From positions 124,001 to 188,000 of the forward strand of contig NZ_JALGBI010000003.1 of the NCBI RefSeq assembly GCF_022809125.1: a stretch of DNA of 64,000 bases. Direction: 5' to 3'. The notes under the pieces are model-generated. The model made no database searches and had not been told where the DNA came from. It saw nothing but the letters and a program-made list of their open reading frames with translations. The translations under genes were made by a program, and so were the position numbers. The DNA is from Variovorax terrae. Its GTDB lineage: Bacteria > Pseudomonadota > Gammaproteobacteria > Burkholderiales > Burkholderiaceae_C. Shown in pieces: positions 44,192-54,858 of the stretch. Each line of letters opens with the position of its first letter. The stretch's first letter is position 1.

Positions 44192-45163
44192 ATGAAACCG
44201 ATTGTCTTCATCGACGGCGACCAAGGCACGACCGGCCTGCAGATCCATGAGCGCCTGCGCACGCGCCAGGACCTGGCCCTGCTGACCCTGCCCGAAGCCG
44301 AGCGCAAGGACCTGCGCCGCCGCGCCGAAGCCATCAACGCCTGCGACGTCGCCATCCTGTGCCTGCCCGACGGGCCGGCACGCGAGGCCGCGGCGTCCGT
44401 CACCAACCCGGCCGTGCGCGTCATCGACGCCAGTTCGGCGCACCGCACCGACCCGCAATGGGTCTATGGCTTCCCCGAAATGACCGCGGGCCAGGCCGGC
44501 CGGATCGCCGCGGCACGGCGCGTCAGCAACCCGGGCTGCTACCCGACTGGCGCGGTCGCGCTGCTGCGCCCGCTGGTGGAAGCGGCGCTGCTGCCCGTCG
44601 ACTACCCGGTCACGGTCCATGCGGTGTCGGGCTACTCGGGGCGCGGGCGCGCCGGGGTGGAACAGCACGAAGGCCCCGCCGCCGCCAGCGCCCCGGCCTT
44701 CCAGGTCTACGGCCTGCGCCTGGACCACAAGCACGCACCCGAAATCCAAGCCCACGCCGGCTTGACGGGGCGGCCCTTTTTCGTGCCCGCCTATGGCGCG
44801 TTCCGCCAGGGCATCGTGCTCACGGTTCCGCTGCAGCTGCGCCTGCTGCCGGCCGGGGTGGACGGCACCCGGCTGCATGCCTGCCTGCAGCGGCACTTCG
44901 CGGGGCAGCCGCAGGTCGAGGTCCTGCCGCTGGCCGACGCGCAGGCGCTGGAGCAGCTGGACCCGCAGGCCCTGAACGGCACCAACAGCCTGCGCCTGGC
45001 CGTGTTCGAGAACGCCCGGCATGGCCAGGTGCTGCTGGCGGCGGTGTTCGACAACCTGGGCAAGGGCGCTTCGGGCGCCGCGGTGCAGAACCTGGATCTG
45101 ATGCTGGGCCGGCCCGGGACGGCGACGGCCCCGGCGCGGGCGGCCGAGGCCGTCGCCGCCTAA
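44192..45163 (+). CDS. argC: N-acetyl-gamma-glutamyl-phosphate reductase, type 2
   Basis: A 323-residue type 2 AGPR, which reduces N-acetylglutamyl-phosphate to the semialdehyde in arginine synthesis. The N-terminal [17 protein letters not shown] binds NADP. The catalytic Cys is in [17 protein letters not shown] (about residue 115), and GYSGRGRAG and the HKHAPEIQ segment are family-specific. Type 2 enzymes are shorter than the type 1 form (about 345). It stands alone, away from other arg genes, divergent from a LysR regulator. CAGGAGCC precedes the ATG. Confidence 0.93.
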
Positions 45164-45173
45164 GGGCCGGCGC

Positions 45174-45980
45174 CTACTTGCCCGGCGCGGCCAGGCGCTC
45201 GCTCATCCAGCGCAGCAGGTCCAGCCACATCTGGCGCATCTCGGCGTCCAGCGGCGTGCGCTGCGCGTTGGGCAGCTCGATGGTGACCACCGGCACGCCC
45301 TTGTGCACGCCGCCGTAGTTGCCCAGCGACCCGGGGAAGATGCCGACCTGGTCGAGATACAGCCGGCCGAGCTTGCTCGGCGGCACCGAGGGGCCGTCGA
45401 AGTCGAGCACGCCATAGGGCGCGTGGATGCTCACGATCAGGTGCGGCTTGAAACGCTGCATCTCGTCGTGCAGGAACTGGGTCTCGGGCTCGGACAGCGG
45501 CTTCGGCCCGGGCCAGCGGCGCGGGTCCTTGCCGGTGCGCTTGGCCCAGTAGACCGGCGCGTCGCGCTCCCACTGGGGCGTGGGGAAGTTGCGGTTCAGG
45601 TCCACGCCGCTGGCGTTCATGCGGCGCGGCGGCTGGCCGAACAGGCCGTCGGGGTTGACCGCGGGCACGAAGCGCCAGTGCACCGGCTGCGGCATCTGCA
45701 CGGCCGGGTCTTCGGCCAGCCGGATCCAGTGCAGGGCCACCGAGGCGGAGGACAGCTCGTCGCCATGGATGCCGCCGATCACCAGCACGCGCAGCTTCTC
45801 GCCGTCGGGCCGGATGTCGCGCACGTACAGCGTGCGGCCCTGGACCGAGCGCCCCGCGCTGGGCTCGAGCCGGGCGCCGGCGCACAGGGCGGCACTCACG
45901 TTCGGCAGCCTCTTGACGAAATCGCCGCAAACGCCTGTGCCTTGTGCGATGGCGGCGATTGAAAACAGGGCCGGCAGCAC
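45174..45980 (-). CDS. M14-family zinc carboxypeptidase (MpaA-like)
   Basis: A zinc peptidase of about 268 residues of the M14 family. The zinc ligands are His and Glu in IGGIHGDELSSASVALHW and His in LIVSIHAPYG. The substrate-binding DLNRNFP and catalytic Glu in VVTIELPNAQRTPLD are present. The MpaA branch trims murein tripeptides (gamma-D-Glu-diaminopimelate amidase). A hydrophobic leader LPALFSIAAIAQG suggests export. I give GTG 45980 as start, but the frame is open further upstream across the divergent gene's promoter, and the start is uncertain. Confidence 0.8.
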   Translation of the reverse strand: MLPALFSIAAIAQGTGVCGDFVKRLPNVSAALCAGARLEPSAGRSVQGRTLYVRDIRPDGEKLRVLVIGGIHGDELSSASVALHWIRLAEDPAVQMPQPVHWRFVPAVNPDGLFGQPPRRMNASGVDLNRNFPTPQWERDAPVYWAKRTGKDPRRWPGPKPLSEPETQFLHDEMQRFKPHLIVSIHAPYGVLDFDGPSVPPSKLGRLYLDQVGIFPGSLGNYGGVHKGVPVVTIELPNAQRTPLDAEMRQMWLDLLRWMSERLAAPGK

Positions 45981-46034
45981 ACCGGCCAGCGCCCGCCAGG
46001 GCCACCGGCCGCCGGCCGCCCTACACTGCGCGCC

Positions 46035-46817: not shown

Positions 46818-48074
46818 TCACTCGTCGCGCTCGCCCGCCTCGTACAGCGTCTCGCGCCCCATGCGGTCGAGGATCAGCTCGGCCGTCCAGGGCAGCATCA
46901 GCGAGCCGCAGCGGCTGTCGCGGTACAGGCGCTCCAGCGGCAAGTGCTTCATCATGCTCTGGCCGCCGCAGGTGCGGATCGCCAGGCGCGCGATGTCGTT
47001 GGCGCCTTCCATCACGCTGTAGTGTGCGGCATAGAGGCGCAGCTTCTCGTCCTTGCCCGGGTTGGGCCGGGCCTCGGCGATGGCGCGGCCAAACAGGCTT
47101 TTCATGGCCTCGAGCTGGATGCGCATCTGCGCCACGGCGATCTGCTTGGTCGGGTACTGGCGGCGCTTGACGGGCGGCTCGCCCGGCACCTCGCCGCGCA
47201 GGTACTGCACCGTGAAGTCGTAAGCCGCGTTGGCGATGCCAAGGTAGGTGGGCGCGAGGGTGAAGAACATCGCGGGCCAGGTCTGCGCACCTTTGAAGTA
47301 GATGCCGCGCGGCATGAGCTGCTCGTCGTCGCTCACGAACACGTCCTTGAACACGAGGTTGCGGCTCACGGTGCCGCGCATGCCCAGCGGGTTCCACTCG
47401 CCGCTGATGGTGAAGCCGGCGCTGGTGGCGGGCACGGCGATGTAGAGCGTGTCGCGCGCGTCAGGGTGCTCGTCGCCCTTGTCCTCGGTGCACAGCACGC
47501 CGTAGTAGTCGGCCGCGCCCGAGAGCGAGGCGAAGATCTTGCGGCCGTTGATGAGCCAGCCGCCGTCCACCTTCTTCGCGGTGGTGCCGAAGGGCGCGCG
47601 GCCCGCGGCGGCGGCGCTGCCCTCGCTGAAAGGCTGGGCGTAGATCGCGCCGTCGTTCACGATGCGCGCGAAGTGCAGCTCGCGCCGCTTCGCGTGCTCG
47701 GCGCGCTGCGCGTCGGTCATGGGGATGCCGTCGGCCAGCACGCCGGTCCACATCGTGGAGCAGATGTGCATGTTCCATGTGAGCGCGGTGGCGCCGCAGA
47801 AGCGGCCGATCTCGGCCGCCACCATCATGTAGGTGGCGAAGTCGGCGCCCAGGCCGCCGTGCGATTCGGGCACGCACAGGCGCAGCAGGCCGGCCTCGCG
47901 CAAGTCGTCGTAGTTGGCGAACGGAAAGCTCGCGCTCTCGTCCCACTGCGCGGCGCGCGGCGCAAACCTGGTGCGGCCCAGCTCGTTCGCCAGCGCTAGC
48001 AGCGAGCGCTGCTTCGGCGTGAACGGCAGGTCGCCCACGGCGGGCGTGAAACTCAGTGCGGGCAAGGCATCCAT
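46818..48074 (-). CDS. acyl-CoA dehydrogenase-fold flavoprotein
   Basis: A 418-residue FAD or FMN enzyme of the acyl-CoA dehydrogenase superfamily. The N-terminal helices contain FPFANYDDLREAGLLRLCVP and ESHGGLGADFATYMMVAAEI. The C-terminal domain contains GANDIARLAIRTCGGQSMMK and LPLERLYRDSRCGSLMLPWT. The superfamily also contains flavin-dependent monooxygenases fed by a separate flavin reductase (HsaA/DszC type). A flavin reductase lies in this same divergent locus, so a ring- or carbon-oxidising monooxygenase is as likely as a CoA-ester dehydrogenase. It is last in the operon starting at 51167, 17 bases after the serine hydrolase gene. Confidence 0.85.
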   Translation of the reverse strand: MDALPALSFTPAVGDLPFTPKQRSLLALANELGRTRFAPRAAQWDESASFPFANYDDLREAGLLRLCVPESHGGLGADFATYMMVAAEIGRFCGATALTWNMHICSTMWTGVLADGIPMTDAQRAEHAKRRELHFARIVNDGAIYAQPFSEGSAAAAGRAPFGTTAKKVDGGWLINGRKIFASLSGAADYYGVLCTEDKGDEHPDARDTLYIAVPATSAGFTISGEWNPLGMRGTVSRNLVFKDVFVSDDEQLMPRGIYFKGAQTWPAMFFTLAPTYLGIANAAYDFTVQYLRGEVPGEPPVKRRQYPTKQIAVAQMRIQLEAMKSLFGRAIAEARPNPGKDEKLRLYAAHYSVMEGANDIARLAIRTCGGQSMMKHLPLERLYRDSRCGSLMLPWTAELILDRMGRETLYEAGERDE

Positions 48075-48091
48075 GGTCGTTCCTCTGAATA

Positions 48092-49327
48092 TCAATCGGT
48101 GCTGCCGCCCAGCGACTGCAGCACGCCGCGCCAGAAGGCGTCGCGCTCCTGGCCGGGCTGCGGGTCCTGCTGGCCGCTGGCGGATTCGTACACCGCCGTC
48201 TGCACCATCACGATGCCGCTGGCAGGCTGCACGAAGACGGCCTGGCCGTGCACGCCCTGGAGGGCGAAGCTGCGCTCGCGCATCGGGAACAGCCAGAACT
48301 GGTAGCCGTAGCCGAAGTACGGCGTGGCGCTGCGCGGCTTGAAAGCCGCGGGCTGGCGCGCCGCGTCGGTGGCGTCGAGCAAATAGTCCAGCGGCACCAC
48401 CTGCTGCTCGCCCACGCGGCCATCGCGCGCCAGCATCAGCCCCAGGCGGCCCCAGTCGCGCAGGCTGGCGTTGAACATGGCGGAGCTGCGCTCCTGGCCT
48501 TCGTGGTTCAGGCCCCAGAAGGCATCGCGCTCGGCGCCCAGCGGCTGCCACAGCCATTCGTGGGTGAGCTCGGCCACGCTGCGCCCGCTGGCGCCGGCCA
48601 GCACCAGGCCCAGCACCTCGGTCTCGGCGCTGGCGTAGACGAACTTGCGGCCGGCCGGGTCGTGCCGCTGCTCGATGGAGCGCAGCACCTCGACCACCGT
48701 CGGGCGGCCGGTGGCGGCGGCGCGCGACAGGCGGGCGATGTCGTCGCGCCCGTCGTAGTGCTCGGTGAAGGTCAGGCCCGAGCTCATGCGCAGCAGCTGG
48801 CGCACGGTGGTGGCGCCATAGGGGCTGCCGGCCAGCGCCTGGGCGTAGGTTTCGGCGGGGTCGTCGAGCGAGGCGATCACGCCCTTGGACACGGCGATGC
48901 CGACCAGCAGCGAGGTCACGCTCTTGGCCATGGAGAACGAGAGAAAGCGCGCGTCGGGCGTGCGGCCGTAGCGATAGCGCTCGGCCACGATCTCGCCGTT
49001 CTTGAGAATCAGCAGGCCAGTGACGCGGTTGCGCTCCAGGTAGTCGTCCAGCGTGTAGCCGAGGTTGCGGTAGCGGTAGTGGATGGCGGCCGGCTGCGCC
49101 GCTGCCGGCAGCGGCGACACGGGGCCGCTGCGCGCCACGGTGCGCGTCGGCAGACCCCGCACCTGGTCCAGCGCCGACCAGGAGCCCACGCGGTAGGGCT
49201 GCGAGTACCAGGTGGCGAGGTTGCCCACGGGGTAGCCCTGGGCCTGACCCAGCAGCGCGGCATCGGGCTCGGCCCGCGCCAGCAGCACACAACCCAGCAG
49301 GCCGAAGGACAGCAACAGGCGTTTCAT
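48092..49327 (-). CDS. class C-type serine hydrolase (beta-lactamase fold)
   Basis: A 411-residue secreted serine hydrolase of the beta-lactamase class C/esterase EstB/6-aminohexanoate-dimer hydrolase group. The signal peptide LLLSFGLLGCVLLARA leads the protein. The nucleophile motif is FLSFSMAKSVTSLLVG (SxxK, about residue 131), the second motif is the YASAETEVLGLVL region, and a C-terminal HGQAVFVQPASG lies near the third motif. It may be an amidase or esterase. In the operon it sits between a NicD-like hydrolase and the ACAD-fold flavoprotein, with gaps of 8 and 17 bases. Confidence 0.85.
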   Translation of the reverse strand: MKRLLLSFGLLGCVLLARAEPDAALLGQAQGYPVGNLATWYSQPYRVGSWSALDQVRGLPTRTVARSGPVSPLPAAAQPAAIHYRYRNLGYTLDDYLERNRVTGLLILKNGEIVAERYRYGRTPDARFLSFSMAKSVTSLLVGIAVSKGVIASLDDPAETYAQALAGSPYGATTVRQLLRMSSGLTFTEHYDGRDDIARLSRAAATGRPTVVEVLRSIEQRHDPAGRKFVYASAETEVLGLVLAGASGRSVAELTHEWLWQPLGAERDAFWGLNHEGQERSSAMFNASLRDWGRLGLMLARDGRVGEQQVVPLDYLLDATDAARQPAAFKPRSATPYFGYGYQFWLFPMRERSFALQGVHGQAVFVQPASGIVMVQTAVYESASGQQDPQPGQERDAFWRGVLQSLGGSTD

Positions 49328-49335
49328 GGATCGGC

Positions 49336-50121
49336 TCAGTGAAGCACGCGCGGCAACGCCAGGAAGTTGAGCACCAGGCCGTCGAAGTCTTCGGGCGCCT
49401 CCAGGTTCTGCAGGTGGCCGATGCCCTTCATCTCGATGTAGCTGCTGCCGGCGATCTGCTCGGCCATCTTCTTCATGACGGCCGGCGGCGCGTTCTTGTC
49501 ATGCTCGCCGGCCACCAGCAACGTGGGCACGTGGATGTTGGGCAGGTTGGCCTTGCGGTCGAAGCTGACCAGCGCCTCCAGCGCGCGGCGGTAGGTGGCC
49601 GGGCTGACCTGCGCCATGCAGTGCGTGGCCAGCTTCACGCCCTCGGGCAACGCGCCGGGGCCGATCATCTGCGGCACCAGCGTTTCGGCCAGCTCGGCCA
49701 TGGTGCGGCCCGCATCCAGCGGCGCGGTGCGCTCGGCGACGAAGCGGCGCTGCCAGTCCCCATCGGGCTTGCCGAAGGCGGGCGAGGTGCCGCAAAGAAT
49801 CAGCTTGTTCACGAGTTCGGGCCGGCGCGCCACCACCTCCTGCGCCACCATGCCGCCCATGCTGTGGCCCAGCAGGATCACGCTGCCGCACTGCAGGCCT
49901 TCGATCAGCGCGATGCAGCTCTGCGCCAGGCCCTTGAAGGTGTAGGGCTCGATCGGCGCGCTGCGGCCGTAGCCTGGCATGTCCCAGGCCACGGCGCGGT
50001 AGCCCGAGCCGGCGAAGGTCTCGACCTGCGGCGCGAAAGCGAGGTTGCCGCCGCCGATGCCGTGCAGCATGAGGATCGTCGGGCCCGCGCCCAGGGTGCT
50101 GAAGGTGGGCATCGTGCTCAT
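49336..50121 (-). CDS. alpha/beta hydrolase, NicD-like (N-formylmaleamate deformylase candidate)
   Basis: A 261-residue alpha/beta hydrolase. The oxyanion HGIGGG (about residue 20), nucleophile ILLGHSMGGMVAQEV (about 93), acid GEHDKNAPP (about 211) and His GIGHLQNLE (about 240) form a complete triad. The sequence also resembles 3-oxoadipate enol-lactonase (PcaD), a close relative. The ATG overlaps the stop of the NicX-like dioxygenase gene by four bases (50118-50121). Direct coupling to a 2,5-dihydroxypyridine dioxygenase is the best argument for a NicD-type deformylase role. Confidence 0.82.
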   Translation of the reverse strand: MSTMPTFSTLGAGPTILMLHGIGGGNLAFAPQVETFAGSGYRAVAWDMPGYGRSAPIEPYTFKGLAQSCIALIEGLQCGSVILLGHSMGGMVAQEVVARRPELVNKLILCGTSPAFGKPDGDWQRRFVAERTAPLDAGRTMAELAETLVPQMIGPGALPEGVKLATHCMAQVSPATYRRALEALVSFDRKANLPNIHVPTLLVAGEHDKNAPPAVMKKMAEQIAGSSYIEMKGIGHLQNLEAPEDFDGLVLNFLALPRVLH

Positions 50122-51167
50122 GCGACTACCCGGCCCTGCTCGACCACGGCCACGCCATCGAGCTGCACCGTGCAGTGGCGCAGCGGCAGGTCGAAATGCC
50201 CCAGCGTGTGGCGCCCGGCCACCTCGTTGGCGCCGGTGCTGTAGAGGAAGTTGCCGGCAAAGGCGCGCAGCTCGGTGCCGTTGAAGTCGCGCTTGTCATA
50301 CAGCGCCATGCTGTCCCAGCGCGCCGCGGCGTTCAGGCCGTAGCCGACGTGGCTGACGGCGTAGGCCTCGCGGTCGCCTTCACGCTCGCTCCAGGCCGCG
50401 ATGTAGCTGCGCATCAGCTCGGCATCGACGCCGGCGCCCTCGATCTTCGTCACGTAGTCGTGCTCGATGGTCAGCGTGACGGGCCGCTCGATGTAGCGCT
50501 TGAATGTGAGGTTGACGTCGCCCTCGGCCAGCACCAGGGTGCCGTTGACGCTGCCGGCCGCGGGGAAGGCCAGCGCCAGCCCGCCGGGCCAGTGCGTCAT
50601 GGTGCCGGGCCGGGTGGTGAAGCCCCAGTTGCCGCCCGCCACCGCGCCCTGCAGCGAGATGGCCAGGTCGGTGCCAGCGGGCGAGGTCACGCGCATGGCC
50701 CGGGCCGCGCGCAGGCGCTTGACGTGGGCCTTGACCAGCGGCTCCAGCTCGTCGCCGGGCAGCAGGCGGGCCAGCGCCTCGGGGTGCTCGTTGCTCACGT
50801 AGACCACTCGGGCGCCACCCTTGAGGATGGCCGGCAGCTCGGGCGCGTGCATCAGGCCTTCCACCGTGCAGTCCACCACCAGCGTGCTGCCGGCCAGCGC
50901 CGAGACCACGGGCGCTATGTTTTGGATAGCACAAGATGACCCAGTGGAGCGGACCACCGGCCGATTTGATTCAAAAACCGTGGGCAACAGCAGCGTGAAG
51001 GCCTGCGCGCCCAGGCGCGCCGCCGCCAGCCGCGCAAGCTGGGGCAGCACCGGGCGGCTCTGGCTTTCGCAGAGAATGGCGACCGTGTCCCCCGGCTGCA
51101 GCGCGCAACGGTGCAGCACGGCCTCGAAGGCATCGATCCAGGCGGGTTCAATGATTTCCTGCAGCAT
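50118..51167 (-). CDS. 2,5-dihydroxypyridine 5,6-dioxygenase-like protein (NicX family)
   Basis: A 349-residue protein of the M29-aminopeptidase-like/NicX family, which opens 2,5-dihydroxypyridine to N-formylmaleamate with Fe(II) and O2. Conserved-looking C-terminal His and Asp ligands occur in YAVSHVGYGLN (about residue 273) and AGRHTLGHFDLPLRH (about 325-338), matching the His/His-x-Asp set reported for NicX. Residues about 64-85 (VFESNRPVVRSTGSSCAIQN) are encoded by an in-frame family 1 repeat and are not expected in the family. Start 51167 is preferred over 51194, which lies inside the operator palindrome. First gene of the minus-strand operon. Confidence 0.8.
   Translation of the reverse strand: MLQEIIEPAWIDAFEAVLHRCALQPGDTVAILCESQSRPVLPQLARLAAARLGAQAFTLLLPTVFESNRPVVRSTGSSCAIQNIAPVVSALAGSTLVVDCTVEGLMHAPELPAILKGGARVVYVSNEHPEALARLLPGDELEPLVKAHVKRLRAARAMRVTSPAGTDLAISLQGAVAGGNWGFTTRPGTMTHWPGGLALAFPAAGSVNGTLVLAEGDVNLTFKRYIERPVTLTIEHDYVTKIEGAGVDAELMRSYIAAWSEREGDREAYAVSHVGYGLNAAARWDSMALYDKRDFNGTELRAFAGNFLYSTGANEVAGRHTLGHFDLPLRHCTVQLDGVAVVEQGRVVA
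50913..50977. repeat. family 1 repeat, copy D, in frame inside the NicX-like gene
   Basis: Head GCTATGTTTTGGATAGC, centre with GTGGAGCGGACCACCGG, tail CGATTTGATTCAAAAACC. It matches copy C in head and tail. Read on the minus strand it codes about 22 residues without a stop. Confidence 0.8.
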
Positions 51168-51189
51168 GGTTTTTCCGTTCAATCCATAA

Positions 51190-51207
51190 TACATGAAATT
51201 TCATGTA
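51190..51207. promoter_or_regulatory. MarR-type operator between divergent operons
   Basis: TACATGAAATTTCATGTA is an 18-bp perfect palindrome in the 50-base spacer between the NicX-like gene and the flavin reductase gene. The MarR gene is the second gene on the plus side, so this is probably its own operator, repressing both directions. Confidence 0.75.
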
Positions 51208-51217
51208 ATTCATCATC

Positions 51218-51727
51218 GTGAACCCTCCCCGCAAGGCGCAGCCTCCGTCATTCTCCGCGCGTGAATTCCGCGCGGCGCTGGGCATGTTCGCCACCGGCGT
51301 GACCATCGTCACCGCGCGCACCGCGCAAGGCGAGCTGGTGGGCCTCACGGCCAACTCGTTCAACTCCGTCTCGCTCGACCCGCCGCTGGTGCTGTGGAGC
51401 CTGGCACGCGCGGCGGGCTCGCTGCCAGCCTTCAGCACCGGCTCGCACTACGCCATCAACATCCTCGCGGCCGACCAGAAGGACCTGGCCGAGCGCTTTG
51501 CGCTCAAGGGCGCCGACCGCTGGGGCGGCGTGGGCTTTGCCGAGGGCGCGGGCGGCGCGCCGCTGCTGGCCGGCGCCGCGGCCAGCTTCGAGTGCTACAA
51601 CCGCAGCCGCTACGAGGAAGGCGACCACGTGATCTTCGTGGGCGAGGTGGAGCGCTGCACGCACCGCGGCGGCGCATCGCCCCTGCTGTTCCACGGCGGG
51701 CGCTTCTTCACCGAGCACGCCCTATGA
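51218..51727 (+). CDS. flavin reductase of a two-component monooxygenase (HpaC-like)
   Basis: A 169-residue flavin reductase with the DIM6/NTAB split-barrel fold, which supplies reduced FMN or FAD to a partner monooxygenase. The family motifs FRAALGMFATGVTIVTART, then LVGLTANSFNSVSLDPPLVL and SHYAINILAADQKDLAERF are clear. The start is GTG at 51218, ten bases after the palindromic operator. It overlaps the MarR gene by four bases (ATGA). The ACAD-fold flavoprotein at 46818 in the divergent operon is its most plausible partner. Confidence 0.9.
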   Translation: MNPPRKAQPPSFSAREFRAALGMFATGVTIVTARTAQGELVGLTANSFNSVSLDPPLVLWSLARAAGSLPAFSTGSHYAINILAADQKDLAERFALKGADRWGGVGFAEGAGGAPLLAGAAASFECYNRSRYEEGDHVIFVGEVERCTHRGGASPLLFHGGRFFTEHAL

Positions 51728-52143
51728 GCGAGCCGCGCTTCGTCGACGGCTACCTCGGCTACCTGCTGGGGCAGGCCAACCACACGCTGTTCAAAGGCTT
51801 CGAGCCCGAGGTGCGCGCCGCCGGCCTGAGCTCGATCGAGTGGCGCGTGCTGGTCACGCTGCACGACGGCGCGCCGCTCACGGTGAGCCAGCTCGCGCAC
51901 GAGGTGCTGAGCAAGCAGCCCACCGTGACCAAGCTGGTGCAGCGCATGGGCGAGCAAGGCTGGGTGGCGCTGCAGGCCGACCCCGCCGACCAGCGCCGCA
52001 CGCTGGTGGCGGCCACCGCGGCAGGCAAGCGGCTGGTGAAGCCGCTGGTCGGCAAGGCCCGACAGCACGAGACCCATGTGCTGCAGGCGCTGGACGCCGG
52101 CGAGCGCGAAGCGCTCAAGCGCCTGCTGGCCCGGCTGGCCTGA
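51724..52143 (+). CDS. MarR-family regulator (NicR-like)
   Basis: A 139-residue winged-helix repressor. The recognition region SQLAHEVLSKQPTVTKLVQR and the wing LQADPADQRRTLVAATAAGK are typical. MarR-type regulators (NicR, PicR) control known pyridine-carboxylate degradation clusters. It overlaps the flavin reductase gene and lies 520 bases from an 18-bp palindrome that is its likely operator. The inducer would probably be a hydroxypyridine intermediate. Confidence 0.9.
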   Translation: MSEPRFVDGYLGYLLGQANHTLFKGFEPEVRAAGLSSIEWRVLVTLHDGAPLTVSQLAHEVLSKQPTVTKLVQRMGEQGWVALQADPADQRRTLVAATAAGKRLVKPLVGKARQHETHVLQALDAGEREALKRLLARLA

Positions 52144-52202: not shown

Positions 52203-53096
52203 ATGACCCCGACAAGAAAAAACCACCTCGACGCCCTCGCCGTCTCGCTGCTGTTGGCCTGCTGCGCGTTCTGGGGCTTCCAGCAGATTCTCATCAAGAC
52301 CACCGTGGGCGAGGTGCCGCCGCTGTGGCAGGCCTCGCTGCGCTTCGTGGGCGCCACCGTGCTGCTGCTGGGCTGGTGCGCCTGGCGCGGCATCCGGCTG
52401 TTCGAGCGCGACGGCACGCTGCCCGCGGGGCTGCTGGCCGGCCTGCTGTTCATGGCCGAGTTCGCGTGCATCTACCTGGGCCTGCGCGACACCACGGCCT
52501 CGCGGCTCACGGTGTTCCTCTACACCTCGCCGTTCGTGGTGGCGCTGCTGCTGCCGCGCTTCGTGCCGTCCGAGCGGCTGCGCGGCGTGCAGTGGGTGGG
52601 GCTGGTGATTGCGTTCGTGGCCGTGGCCTTCGCCTTCAGCGAGGGCTTCTCGCACACCACGGCGCGGCAAGTGCGCGGCGACGCGCTGGCGCTGGCCGCG
52701 GGCATCTTCTGGGGCCTGACCACGCTGGTGATCCGCAGCAGCAAGATGATGACCGTGAGCCCCGAGAAGACGCTGTTCTACCAGGTGGCGGTGACCGCCG
52801 CGGCCGCGCCGCTGCTGTCGCTGGCGCTGGGCGAAACCTGGTCGTTCTCGTACTCGGCCTGGGCCTGGACCTCGATCGGGCTGCAGACCGCCATTGGCGC
52901 CTTCGCCAGCTACCTGGCCTGGATGTGGATGCTGCGGCACTACCCGGCCACGCAGATGTCGTCGTTCACCTTCCTCACGCCGGTGTTCGCGCTGGTGCTG
53001 GGCGTGGCGGTGCTGGGCGAGCCGCTCACGCTGCAGCTGGTGCTGGCGCTGGCCGGCGTGGCGGCGGGTATCGTGCTGGTGAACCGCAAGGCCTGA
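52203..53096 (+). CDS. DMT-superfamily (EamA) transporter
   Basis: A 297-residue inner-membrane protein with ten predicted helices in two EamA repeats. The first repeat contains CCAFWGFQQILIKTTVGEVP and LYTSPFVVALLLP. The second contains AAGIFWGLTTLVIRSS and FTFLTPVFALVLGVAVLGEP, the usual second-repeat signature. It begins 59 bases after the MarR gene in the same direction and may belong to that transcript, in which case it could export or import a metabolite of the pathway. Substrate unknown. Confidence 0.9.
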   Translation: MTPTRKNHLDALAVSLLLACCAFWGFQQILIKTTVGEVPPLWQASLRFVGATVLLLGWCAWRGIRLFERDGTLPAGLLAGLLFMAEFACIYLGLRDTTASRLTVFLYTSPFVVALLLPRFVPSERLRGVQWVGLVIAFVAVAFAFSEGFSHTTARQVRGDALALAAGIFWGLTTLVIRSSKMMTVSPEKTLFYQVAVTAAAAPLLSLALGETWSFSYSAWAWTSIGLQTAIGAFASYLAWMWMLRHYPATQMSSFTFLTPVFALVLGVAVLGEPLTLQLVLALAGVAAGIVLVNRKA

Positions 53097-53106
53097 GCGC
53101 GCCGGC

Positions 53107-54090
53107 TCAGTCCTGCGCCTCTTGCTGGCGACCCGTTCCACCCTGGTGCCGCCGGTACATCGCCGGCGAAATGCCCACGTGCCTGACGAAGCTGCGGCGC
53201 AGCGTGTCGGCGTTGGCAAAACCGCACCGGGCCGCGACCTGCTTGGGCGCCTCCGCGCCCGCCTCCAGCAACGCGCGGGCGGCCGACACGCGCATCCTCT
53301 CAACCCATACCGCGGGCGTGCTGCCGACCTCGGCGTGGAACAGGCGCGCGAAATGCCTGGGGCTGAGGCCGGCACGCCCGGCCAGCGCATCGACCGACAG
53401 GTTCTGCGCCGGGTGGGCCGCGGCCCAGCGCTGCACCTCCTGCAGCACGGAGCGCCCGGCCACGCCGGTATGGCCGTTGCGGCTGAACTGCAGCTGCCCG
53501 CCGGGACGCTTGAAGAACATCACGAGCTGGGACGCGACGCGCGCCGCCACCTCGCGCCCGCAGTCCTCCTCGACCAGCGATAGCGCCAGGTCCAGCCCCG
53601 CGGTGACGCCTGCCGAGGTGCGCAGCCTGCCGTCGCGCACATGCAGCGCGTCCTCTTCCACCGTGATGCGCGGATAGGCCTGCTTCAAATCGTTCGCCAC
53701 CGCCCAGTGGGTCGTCACCCGCCGGCCATCAAGCAGGCCGGCAGCGGCCAGGAACAGCGCGCCGGAGCAGACCGAACCAAAGCGCCGGGCGCGCCGGGCC
53801 GTGGCGCGCAGCCATTGCACCGTCGGCTCGTTTAAAAGGGTGTTTGCAGCGTTCGGCGCGCCGGCAACCAGCAGCGTGTCCAGGCGCTCGGGCGGCCCGC
53901 CCACCACGGCGTCGGGTACCAGGCGCACGCCCGAGGAACTGCGGATCGGCGCGGAATCCCGGCCCACCACGCGCAGTGTGTAGAGCTCGCGGCCCAGCTC
54001 GGCGTTGGCCTGCGCGAACACGTCCAGCGGCCCCGACACGTCCAGCAGCTGCACGCCCGGCAGGGCCAGGATCGCGATGGTCTTGGTCAT
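53107..54090 (-). CDS. GlxA-type regulator (DJ-1/PfpI plus AraC)
   Basis: A 327-residue regulator of the GlxA family. The N-terminal DJ-1/PfpI domain (about 1-180) contains IAILALPGVQLLDVSGPLDV and the nucleophile-elbow-like GSVCSGALFLAAAGLLDG. The C-terminal AraC domain (about 220-320) has two helix-turn-helix motifs, AGLSPRHFARLFHAEVGSTP and VAARCGFANADTLRRSFVRH. The start at 54090 avoids the upstream open frame. It is divergent from the HD-domain gene, with a dyad in the spacer. Confidence 0.9.
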   Translation of the reverse strand: MTKTIAILALPGVQLLDVSGPLDVFAQANAELGRELYTLRVVGRDSAPIRSSSGVRLVPDAVVGGPPERLDTLLVAGAPNAANTLLNEPTVQWLRATARRARRFGSVCSGALFLAAAGLLDGRRVTTHWAVANDLKQAYPRITVEEDALHVRDGRLRTSAGVTAGLDLALSLVEEDCGREVAARVASQLVMFFKRPGGQLQFSRNGHTGVAGRSVLQEVQRWAAAHPAQNLSVDALAGRAGLSPRHFARLFHAEVGSTPAVWVERMRVSAARALLEAGAEAPKQVAARCGFANADTLRRSFVRHVGISPAMYRRHQGGTGRQQEAQD

Positions 54091-54142
54091 GGAATGGCTC
54101 CTGTCCACCGGTGTCGCCATCTCGCGTGAAATGGCAGAAACA

Positions 54143-54155
54143 GACGTTATACGTC
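54143..54155. promoter_or_regulatory. dyad between GlxA-type regulator and HD gene
   Basis: GACGT-TAT-ACGTC is a perfect dyad, about 55 bases from the regulator start and 62 bases from the HD gene start. It is flanked by AATGG (54130) and CCATT (54155), extending partial symmetry. Confidence 0.4.
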
Positions 54156-54216
54156 CATTGAAGACAGGCCAGTGTATCTCCAGAATCGATCGGATCACTT
54201 TGAAAGGAGCCCCGAC

Positions 54217-54858
54217 ATGAGCCTCGACCTCGATGGCATCGCCATCCCCCAAAGCCAGCTGGCGCGCGAGATCACCGAGCTGGTTCGCGACACGGCCTCG
54301 CCGCTGCTGTTCCACCATTCCAGCCGCGTCTACTACTTCGGCGCCCTGGCCGGCAAGAAGCGCGGGCTCAAGTTCGATCCCGAGCTGCTGTACTGCGGCT
54401 GCATGTTCCACGACATGGGCCTGACGCACCGGCACAGCAGCGCGTGCTGCCGCTTCGAGGTGGACGGCGCCAACGCGGCGCGCAACTTCCTGCACGGCCA
54501 CGGCATCGCGCAGCAGGACATCGACCTGGTCTGGACTGCGATCGCGCTGCACACCACGCCGGGCATTCCCGAGTTCATGCACCCCGTCATCGCGCTGGTG
54601 ACCGCGGGCGTGGAGATGGACGTGCTGGGGCTGACCTACGCCGACTACAGCGATGCCGAACGCGAGGCCGTGGTGGCCGCGCACCCGCGCGGCCCGCACT
54701 TCAAGGAAGACATCCTCCAGGCCTTCCACGATGGCATCCAGCACAAGCCGCAGACCACCTTCGGCAATGTGAAGGCCGACGTGCTGGCCGACAAGGACCC
54801 GGCGTTCCAGCCGATGAACTTCTGCAGCGTGATCCGCCGCTCGCCGTGGCCGGGCTGA
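54217..54858 (+). CDS. HD-domain hydrolase, cyanamide hydratase-like
   Basis: A 213-residue metal-dependent HD-domain protein. The signature FHHSSRVYYFGALAG (about residues 33-47), then LLYCGCMFHDMGLT with the HD pair (about 57-70) and AIALHTTPGIPEF (about 110), matches the cyanamide hydratase/Ddi2-like branch of the HD superfamily. AAAGGAGC precedes ATG 54217. It is divergent from a GlxA-type regulator, which probably induces it. Activity on cyanamide or another nitrile-like or amide compound is a family inference. Confidence 0.85.
   Translation: MSLDLDGIAIPQSQLAREITELVRDTASPLLFHHSSRVYYFGALAGKKRGLKFDPELLYCGCMFHDMGLTHRHSSACCRFEVDGANAARNFLHGHGIAQQDIDLVWTAIALHTTPGIPEFMHPVIALVTAGVEMDVLGLTYADYSDAEREAVVAAHPRGPHFKEDILQAFHDGIQHKPQTTFGNVKADVLADKDPAFQPMNFCSVIRRSPWPG

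Follow-up and report, generated by a model that had tools for sequence, protein, structure and literature searches.

The route through 2,5-dihydroxypyridine runs via NicX and NicD to maleamate and on to maleate, which are handled by NicF and NicE, and we know of no substrate of the NicX type other than 2,5-dihydroxypyridine. NicX itself has been said to define a subtype of its own among the non-heme Fe dioxygenases (PMC7910607; this and the other papers cited are drawn upon through passages of them). Here we report on a locus in a 64,000-nucleotide stretch of DNA from Variovorax terrae (contig NZ_JALGBI010000003.1, positions 124,001 to 188,000; "the window" below means this whole stretch), in which the gene of a NicX-like Fe(II) dioxygenase stands together with genes for an alpha/beta hydrolase, a flavoprotein of the acyl-CoA dehydrogenase (ACAD) fold, a flavin reductase and a MarR-family regulator. 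This gene cluster is real and conserved, and as far as the literature searched shows it is undescribed, no account of the gene set being found in the titles, abstract openings and passages of selected papers that the search covered. Its dioxygenase seems best read as an enzyme of the NicX type that has been turned to a different N-heteroaromatic ring.

The module shares with the nic clusters the logic of a hydroxylase, a dioxygenase and an alpha/beta hydrolase, but a two-component ACAD-fold oxygenase would replace the NicC-like FAD monooxygenase. The ring-cleaving 2,4-dioxygenase of the quinaldine pathway of Arthrobacter sp. Rue61a is cofactor-free and has another fold. It also releases CO, which sets it apart from the enzyme proposed here, although the upper part of that pathway leads to anthranilate and from there to an anthranilate-CoA ligase and a 2-aminobenzoyl-CoA monooxygenase/reductase, and the proposed anthranilate product with its CoA route onward would be alike (PMC3534580). 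The ACAD-fold IacA, working with the flavin reductase IacG, oxidises indole-3-acetate and other indoles (PMC7225977); by description, and not by IacA sequence, the combination of an ACAD-fold oxygenase and a flavin reductase is the same in the module. Control of the MarR type is a further likeness to the iac loci, but these have other partners and end in catechol (PMC9613470). The indole iif/ind systems likewise employ a two-component flavin oxygenase and lead to anthranilate (PMC6221969), but IifC is a group E enzyme (PMC7225977) and the last iif step uses the cofactor-independent IifA; in the Cupriavidus indole pathway, a 2-aminobenzoyl-CoA cluster is needed downstream (PMC6221969).

A NicX-like dioxygenase in a separate clade

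The only solved structure in the PDB that matched the dioxygenase at E<=0.001 was that of P. putida NicX (7cn3, 197.5 bits), with residues 21-358 aligned to NicX 10-343, which is nearly the full length. This bears out the NicX-like dioxygenase of a prediction made earlier for this DNA (the original prediction). The same prediction had placed the start at 51194; because the ATG at that position falls within the palindrome between the divergent transcripts, and because relatives begin at the second Met, which matches 51167, the start is probably at 51167.

In NicX, the Fe ligands are H265, S302, H318 and D320, the last being held by R293; L104 and H105 guide the substrate, E177 and H189 bind the C2-derived oxygen, and E308 may act through H105 (PMC7910607). 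We compared such positions in 210 sequences (the window protein, NicX and fetched loci), 151 of which were left after near-copies had been dropped: 134 nearer to the window protein, called window-type below, and 17 nearer to NicX, called canonical. The four Fe ligands, R293 and H105 are kept in 134/134 window-type sequences, and His189 in 132/134. Glu177, however, is kept in none of the 134, its place being taken by N, V, G, T, I or A (Asn in the window), and the same is true of Tyr178, where W, P, A or F is found, and of Glu308, where V, F, T, Y, I or S is found. Among the 17 canonical sequences, Glu177 is present in 16 (Gln in one), Tyr178 in all and Glu308 in 15.

The placement of the dioxygenase among NicX relatives, suggested as a check by the original prediction, was carried out on 49 window-type and 17 canonical sequences; the two groups separate at 100/100, with some rows in both on long branches, and the window protein belongs to a clade apart from canonical NicX. 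What emerges is a large sister clade to NicX, whose members share its metal site but differ in the pocket and have conserved partners. The plain reading of this clade would be the same chemistry on another substrate, and a pocket without E177 and Y178 could have space for a benzo ring. Among the 120 best relatives (at least 80% identity), the public names, where there are any, are peptidase M29 or 2,5-dihydroxypyridine 5,6-dioxygenase, and both names are probably wrong for the window-type clade.

The conserved gene set and its enzymes

To assess conservation of the gene set, we relied mainly on 49 window-type loci, free of redundancy and flanked by 5 kb or more on either side. Most are from Burkholderiales and most came from a scan of named genomes; six canonical NicX loci served as a contrast, and neighbours were counted within 6 kb. 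The ACAD-type oxygenase and the alpha/beta hydrolase are each present in 45 of the 49 loci, the flavin reductase in 41 and the MarR gene in 40, against 0/6 for each of the four in the canonical loci. Conversely, NicC, NicE and NicF are each found in 0 of the 49, as opposed to two, two and four of the six canonical loci, respectively. The linkage of the core genes exceeds chance, and the core is kept together in related genomes, where the original prediction had advised looking for it.

A search of 250 genomes of the same family gave 39 with a match, namely 31 window-type (at least 60% identity), seven canonical only and one weak, and one of these 250 genomes (G133) has both NicX types. The scan of named genomes gave 549 relatives, and the best 80, which were kept, belong to Ramlibacter, Caenimonas, Hydrogenophaga, Polaromonas, Rhodoferax, SAR324 and a small number of Alphaproteobacteria. 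Genomes with the core set include those of Ramlibacter, Hydrogenophaga, Polaromonas and Ensifer. Two further groups of loci, largely from Alphaproteobacteria, have the ACAD gene in 14/16 (L140-L142, L174-L186) and 12/19 (L221-L239). At the level of sequence, the module is thus conserved across distant Proteobacteria, the MarR gene being usual on the Burkholderiales side.

The lay-out around the core varies. Ramlibacter and Hydrogenophaga have it as in the window, Polaromonas and Rhodoferax have an ANL acyl-CoA ligase gene after the ACAD gene, and relatives of genome G441 combine an ANL ligase with a TRAP transporter and, in some cases, a P450 gene. A ligase, an ABC transporter and a 2-aminobenzoyl-CoA-type operon accompany the core in family f48. 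In Ensifer, Aminobacter and their kin, a glutamine-synthetase-like protein and an APC permease are found, and some loci of this type add a gentisate-dioxygenase-like cupin, a fumarylacetoacetate-hydrolase-family protein and a nitrilase-like protein.

The six genes of the window lie where the original prediction had put them (Table 1), with a minus-strand set and a divergent flavin reductase/MarR pair. Transcription on the minus strand runs from the NicX-like dioxygenase through the alpha/beta hydrolase and the serine hydrolase to the ACAD-fold flavoprotein, and ATGA overlaps join the first two of these frames (50118-50121, as predicted) and those of the flavin reductase and MarR (51724-51727).

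Table 1. Features of the locus, in positions of the window
Feature	Position	Strand	Remarks
NicX-like Fe(II) dioxygenase	50118..51167	-	349 aa from probable start; frame open to 51194
alpha/beta hydrolase, PcaD-neighbourhood	49336..50121	-	PF00561 90.6 bits; GHSMG motif, residue 85
class C beta-lactamase-fold serine hydrolase, SMAK motif	48092..49327	-	PF00144 109.9 bits; sporadic accessory
ACAD-fold flavoprotein, proposed oxygenase component	46818..48074	-	PF02771/PF02770/PF00441/PF08028
flavin reductase, proposed reductase component	51218..51727	+	PF01613 134.6 bits
MarR-family regulator	51724..52143	+	PF12802 46.5 bits
palindrome TACATGAAATTTCATGTA, proposed MarR operator	51190..51207	.	perfect, 18 bases, between divergent transcripts
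EamA-family transporter	52203..53096	+	PF00892 122.1 bits

The alignment of the ACAD-fold protein with rat short-chain acyl-CoA dehydrogenase ends at residue 366 of the rat chain. When it is extended by two residues, Leu394 falls at the place of Glu368, which we take to be the catalytic Glu of the rat enzyme, and this Leu sits in an LMLP motif that is invariant among 8 relatives. The original prediction had named the catalytic Glu of true dehydrogenases as evidence that would speak against its view of this protein; what is found is a Leu, in a comparison that covers the Glu position of the short-chain dehydrogenase and not the alternative Glu of isovaleryl-CoA dehydrogenase. Named models score far below their cut-offs, both those of FadE16 (135 bits, cut-off 600) and AcrC (115 bits) and those of HsaA (72 bits, cut-off 450) and DszC (69 bits, cut-off 850), and sequence alone does not settle the ACAD subfamily. 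The nearest NCBIfam models of the flavin reductase are HPA hydroxylase reductase, FerA and HsaB, again below their cut-offs. The earlier idea that the ACAD-fold protein and the reductase form a hydroxylase, which would be a group D two-component monooxygenase, is supported by the missing dehydrogenase Glu and the linked flavin reductase, but its dihydroxypyridine product is unsupported. The logic of hydroxylation and subsequent ring opening thus has support, and the named substrate has none. ACAD-family matches were also seen on three plasmids (Dolichospermum, Variovorax and Ensifer canadensis), with no NicX-like gene listed nearby.

The alpha/beta hydrolase reaches 139.9 bits with the model of PcaD, the 3-oxoadipate enol-lactonase (TIGR02427, cut-off 255.85); its identity to the NicD-like gene of L031, a canonical nic cluster, is 20% across 219 residues. 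The hydrolase is therefore nearer to PcaD than to NicD, and its earlier label as NicD-like had to be given up. Loci of the Ensifer/Aminobacter type have in its place a hydrolase of about 31% identity whose N-terminus carries a Polyketide_cyc2 domain. The class C serine hydrolase, for which a role in the pathway had been suggested, is present in 5/49 window-type loci and turns out to be an occasional extra outside the core; among structures it matches 8rlj with 187.6 bits and 6-aminohexanoate-dimer hydrolases with about 95-99 bits, and by eye its N-terminus has the look of a signal peptide.

As to regulation, the MarR protein scores 60.4 bits against the HpaR model (cut-off 121.2). The core of the palindrome TACATGAAATTTCATGTA is seen once in the window and in none of 100 shuffles; the 4.93 Mb genome has a single copy of ATGAAWWTTCAT. 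When upstream stretches of 133 relatives were searched, four similar cores made up the best palindrome in 43, namely ATGAAATTTCAT in 18, ATGAATTTTCAT in 16, ATGAATATTCAT in 5 and ATGAAAATTCAT in 4, the remainder being without such a site. We propose the palindrome as a putative MarR operator.

Anthranilate as a possible product, and rival explanations

We propose, with a probability of roughly 0.4, that the locus is an N-heteroaromatic catabolic module whose substrate would be a benzo-fused ring draining to anthranilate; that such rings (indole or 4-quinolone) may be the most likely class is the weaker part of this proposal. The flavin reductase would feed reduced flavin to the ACAD-fold oxygenase, which would hydroxylate the ring next to N-CH, and the NicX-like enzyme would then use O2 to cleave N(H)-CH=C(OH)-, so that the nitrogen keeps a formyl (or acyl) group and a carboxylate is newly formed. 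On indoxyl, NicX chemistry (N(H)-CH=C(OH)-R -> N-CHO + HOOC-R) would give N-formylanthranilate, an intermediate of an indole pathway that was proposed in 1953 (PMC6221969). The alpha/beta hydrolase would remove the acyl group, and anthranilate would enter a 2-aminobenzoyl-CoA route encoded elsewhere. MarR, for its part, would repress both divergent transcripts via the palindrome until a pathway compound binds. We are more tentative, and indeed rather doubtful, about a wider claim, that two-component ACAD-fold hydroxylation of a benzo-fused N-heterocycle (indole or quinolone type), its opening by a NicX-type enzyme adapted from pyridine through loss of Glu177, and a hydrolase make up an undescribed aerobic route to anthranilate in many Proteobacteria. 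If the anthranilate reading is true, it bears on whether iif is the sole aerobic indole degradation gene cluster, a question left open in passages of PMC6221969.

The evidence for this sink comes from the family NF006101, an FAD monooxygenase joined to an OYE-type reductase. Because of its domain make-up and operon neighbours, we take it to be a 2-aminobenzoyl-CoA monooxygenase/reductase. The neighbours are a benzoate-CoA-ligase-family ligase and an enoyl-CoA hydratase, to which several operons add an SDR, a Rid imine deaminase and a thioesterase-type protein. In a phylum sample, NF006101 is found in 19/19 window-type carriers, in 52/379 other genomes and in 8/15 canonical NicX genomes, and in Burkholderiaceae in 29/31 carriers as compared with 115/219 others, where some fragments are below the cut-off. 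The difference between window-type and canonical genomes in the phylum sample gives a Fisher p of 0.0012, without correction for kinship; a control, phenylacetyl-CoA epoxidase (TIGR02156), is present in 14/19 and 7/15, respectively (p 0.16, likewise without kinship correction). In eight carriers the NF006101 gene is within about 15 kb of the NicX-like gene, at a distance of about 8 kb in G283, G406, G577, G606 and G623, 4.5 kb in G627 and G628 and 15 kb in G087, and in other carriers it is on another contig or far away.

A number of observations weigh against a drain to anthranilate. The NCBI name for NF006101 is salicylyl-CoA 5-hydroxylase/oxidoreductase, and the family was not found in the carriers G104 and G188 and is below the cut-off in G290. 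Its presence in genomes without the module and in about half of the canonical NicX genomes shows that it is not confined to carriers, and in this genome (G000:C2:146846-149188) and in G358 it is on another contig than the module. The control leans the same way as NF006101, and the Fisher tests take no account of kinship. Furthermore, the hydrolase looks more like an enol-lactonase than like a deformylase, and some NicX-like genes stand without an ACAD gene (L119, L129, L135, L137, L181, L182, L226, L229, L233, L235 and L237-L239, of which L235 and L238 are loci where gene calling also missed the dioxygenase). Finally, indole itself gives no reason for the CoA ligase and the acid-type (TRAP) transporters found in relatives, and a ligase is already part of the 2-aminobenzoyl-CoA operon. 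The CoA ligase and acid-type transporters suggest that some relatives take in an organic acid, and the substrate may differ between branches. The CoA ligase of the relatives was also considered as an anthranilate ligase, an idea weakened by the benzoate-type ligase of the 2-aminobenzoyl-CoA-type operons, to which it is 28% identical.

An organic acid would also suit a monocyclic pyridine other than 2,5-dihydroxypyridine, for instance a carboxylated or alkylated hydroxypyridine, which the same three enzymes would convert to a product that bypasses maleate. The homology to NicX with an intact Fe site fits such a substrate as well, as do the ligase and TRAP transporter of the relatives, but the occurrence of NF006101 in all 19 carriers would be left unexplained, and we consider this explanation unlikely. 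The ligase raises another option: its CoA thioester product could be the substrate of the ACAD-fold protein, and the ring compound would be processed as a CoA ester either ahead of its cleavage or afterwards. In the Polaromonas/Rhodoferax relatives and several others, an ANL ligase gene comes after that of the ACAD protein, this genome has a 53% homologue, and models of true dehydrogenases score as well as those of HsaA or DszC. Since, however, the clusters of Ramlibacter, Hydrogenophaga and Ensifer/Aminobacter are without a ligase, the homologue in this genome has unrelated neighbours, and the usual catalytic Glu is absent from the ACAD-fold protein, a CoA-bound ring seems quite improbable.

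The original prediction itself, in which different partner enzymes would serve a route leading to 2,5-dihydroxypyridine or away from it, draws on the full-length homology to NicX and on the retained His105, His189 and Fe ligands. Its statement that NicC, NicF and NicE are not at the locus is correct, as no homologue was found in the window at E<=1e-3, the 20% match to NicD being the sole trace there of the usual NicX partners. Overlooked copies were also considered and rejected: in this genome, NicE has no match at E<=1e-20 and NicF just a 35% match outside the window, NicC having been sought in the window only. With the NicE of L031 as a query (E<=1e-20), maleate isomerase was found in 0/18 window-type-only and 14/15 canonical-only genomes of the phylum sample, and in 3/26 (G083, G104 and G204, with 59-66% identity) and 3/5, respectively, in Burkholderiaceae, which makes 3/44 window-type-only against 17/20 canonical genomes when pooled; in G133 and G570, which have both NicX types, NicE adjoins the canonical copy. 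NicF at 40% identity or more is present in 1/18 window-type-only (G573) and 14/15 canonical-only genomes. Because Glu177, a binder of the C2-derived oxygen (PMC7910607), is lost throughout, maleate isomerases are few and the hydrolase is so distant from NicD, the link to 2,5-dihydroxypyridine is unsupported, and we regard this route as very improbable. Even less credible is an aminopeptidase of the M29 type, which the NCBI names of relatives would imply and which the original prediction had considered as a threat to its own view: no Pfam family, M29 included, matched the dioxygenase at E<=0.001, NicX is the sole solved structure recovered, and the iron ligands of NicX are kept, so that we rejected this identity.

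Neighbouring genes and further loci

The EamA-family transporter adjoins the gene set in many Ramlibacter and Hydrogenophaga loci, and its membership of the module is uncertain. The downstream neighbour at window 45160-46005 (minus strand) is kept in several Ramlibacter and Hydrogenophaga loci; its product resembles an M14-type carboxypeptidase by eye and matches no Pfam family at E<=0.001. The best homologue in this genome of the CoA ligase of the module's relatives (L139, G000:C3:66112-67545) stands alone, next to an epimerase, a glycosyltransferase and a nitronate-monooxygenase-like gene, with no pathway seen.

Several loci elsewhere deserve mention. The plasmids of Ensifer (L140, 14004-21732) and Aminobacter (L141, 10263-22376) and their kin L174, L175 and L186 carry the dioxygenase and ACAD genes, and the gentisate-dioxygenase-like cupin is upstream in Aminobacter and three further genomes. 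In L129 (3056-14085), a NicX-like gene with 66% identity is without an ACAD-type oxygenase; it adjoins ABC transporter genes, a further protein of the class C beta-lactamase fold and an ACAD whose dehydrogenase domains are strong. A divergent NicX-like gene of about 49% identity, in L226 (G721:C9), is near an SDR and a hydrolase 33% identical to that of the window, and by eye its neighbours also resemble the end of a meta-cleavage pathway. In L228 the module adjoins a cytochrome P450 gene (10221-11492), which was tested as such there, and similar genes are present in L232 and L234; a flavin reductase was not found in these three loci. On the other side of the window's gene set, the frame at 53107-54744 (minus strand) encodes a DJ-1/PfpI domain together with an AraC-type regulator and is FtrA-like; the start of this 545-residue frame is probably too far out, as its domains begin near residue 220.

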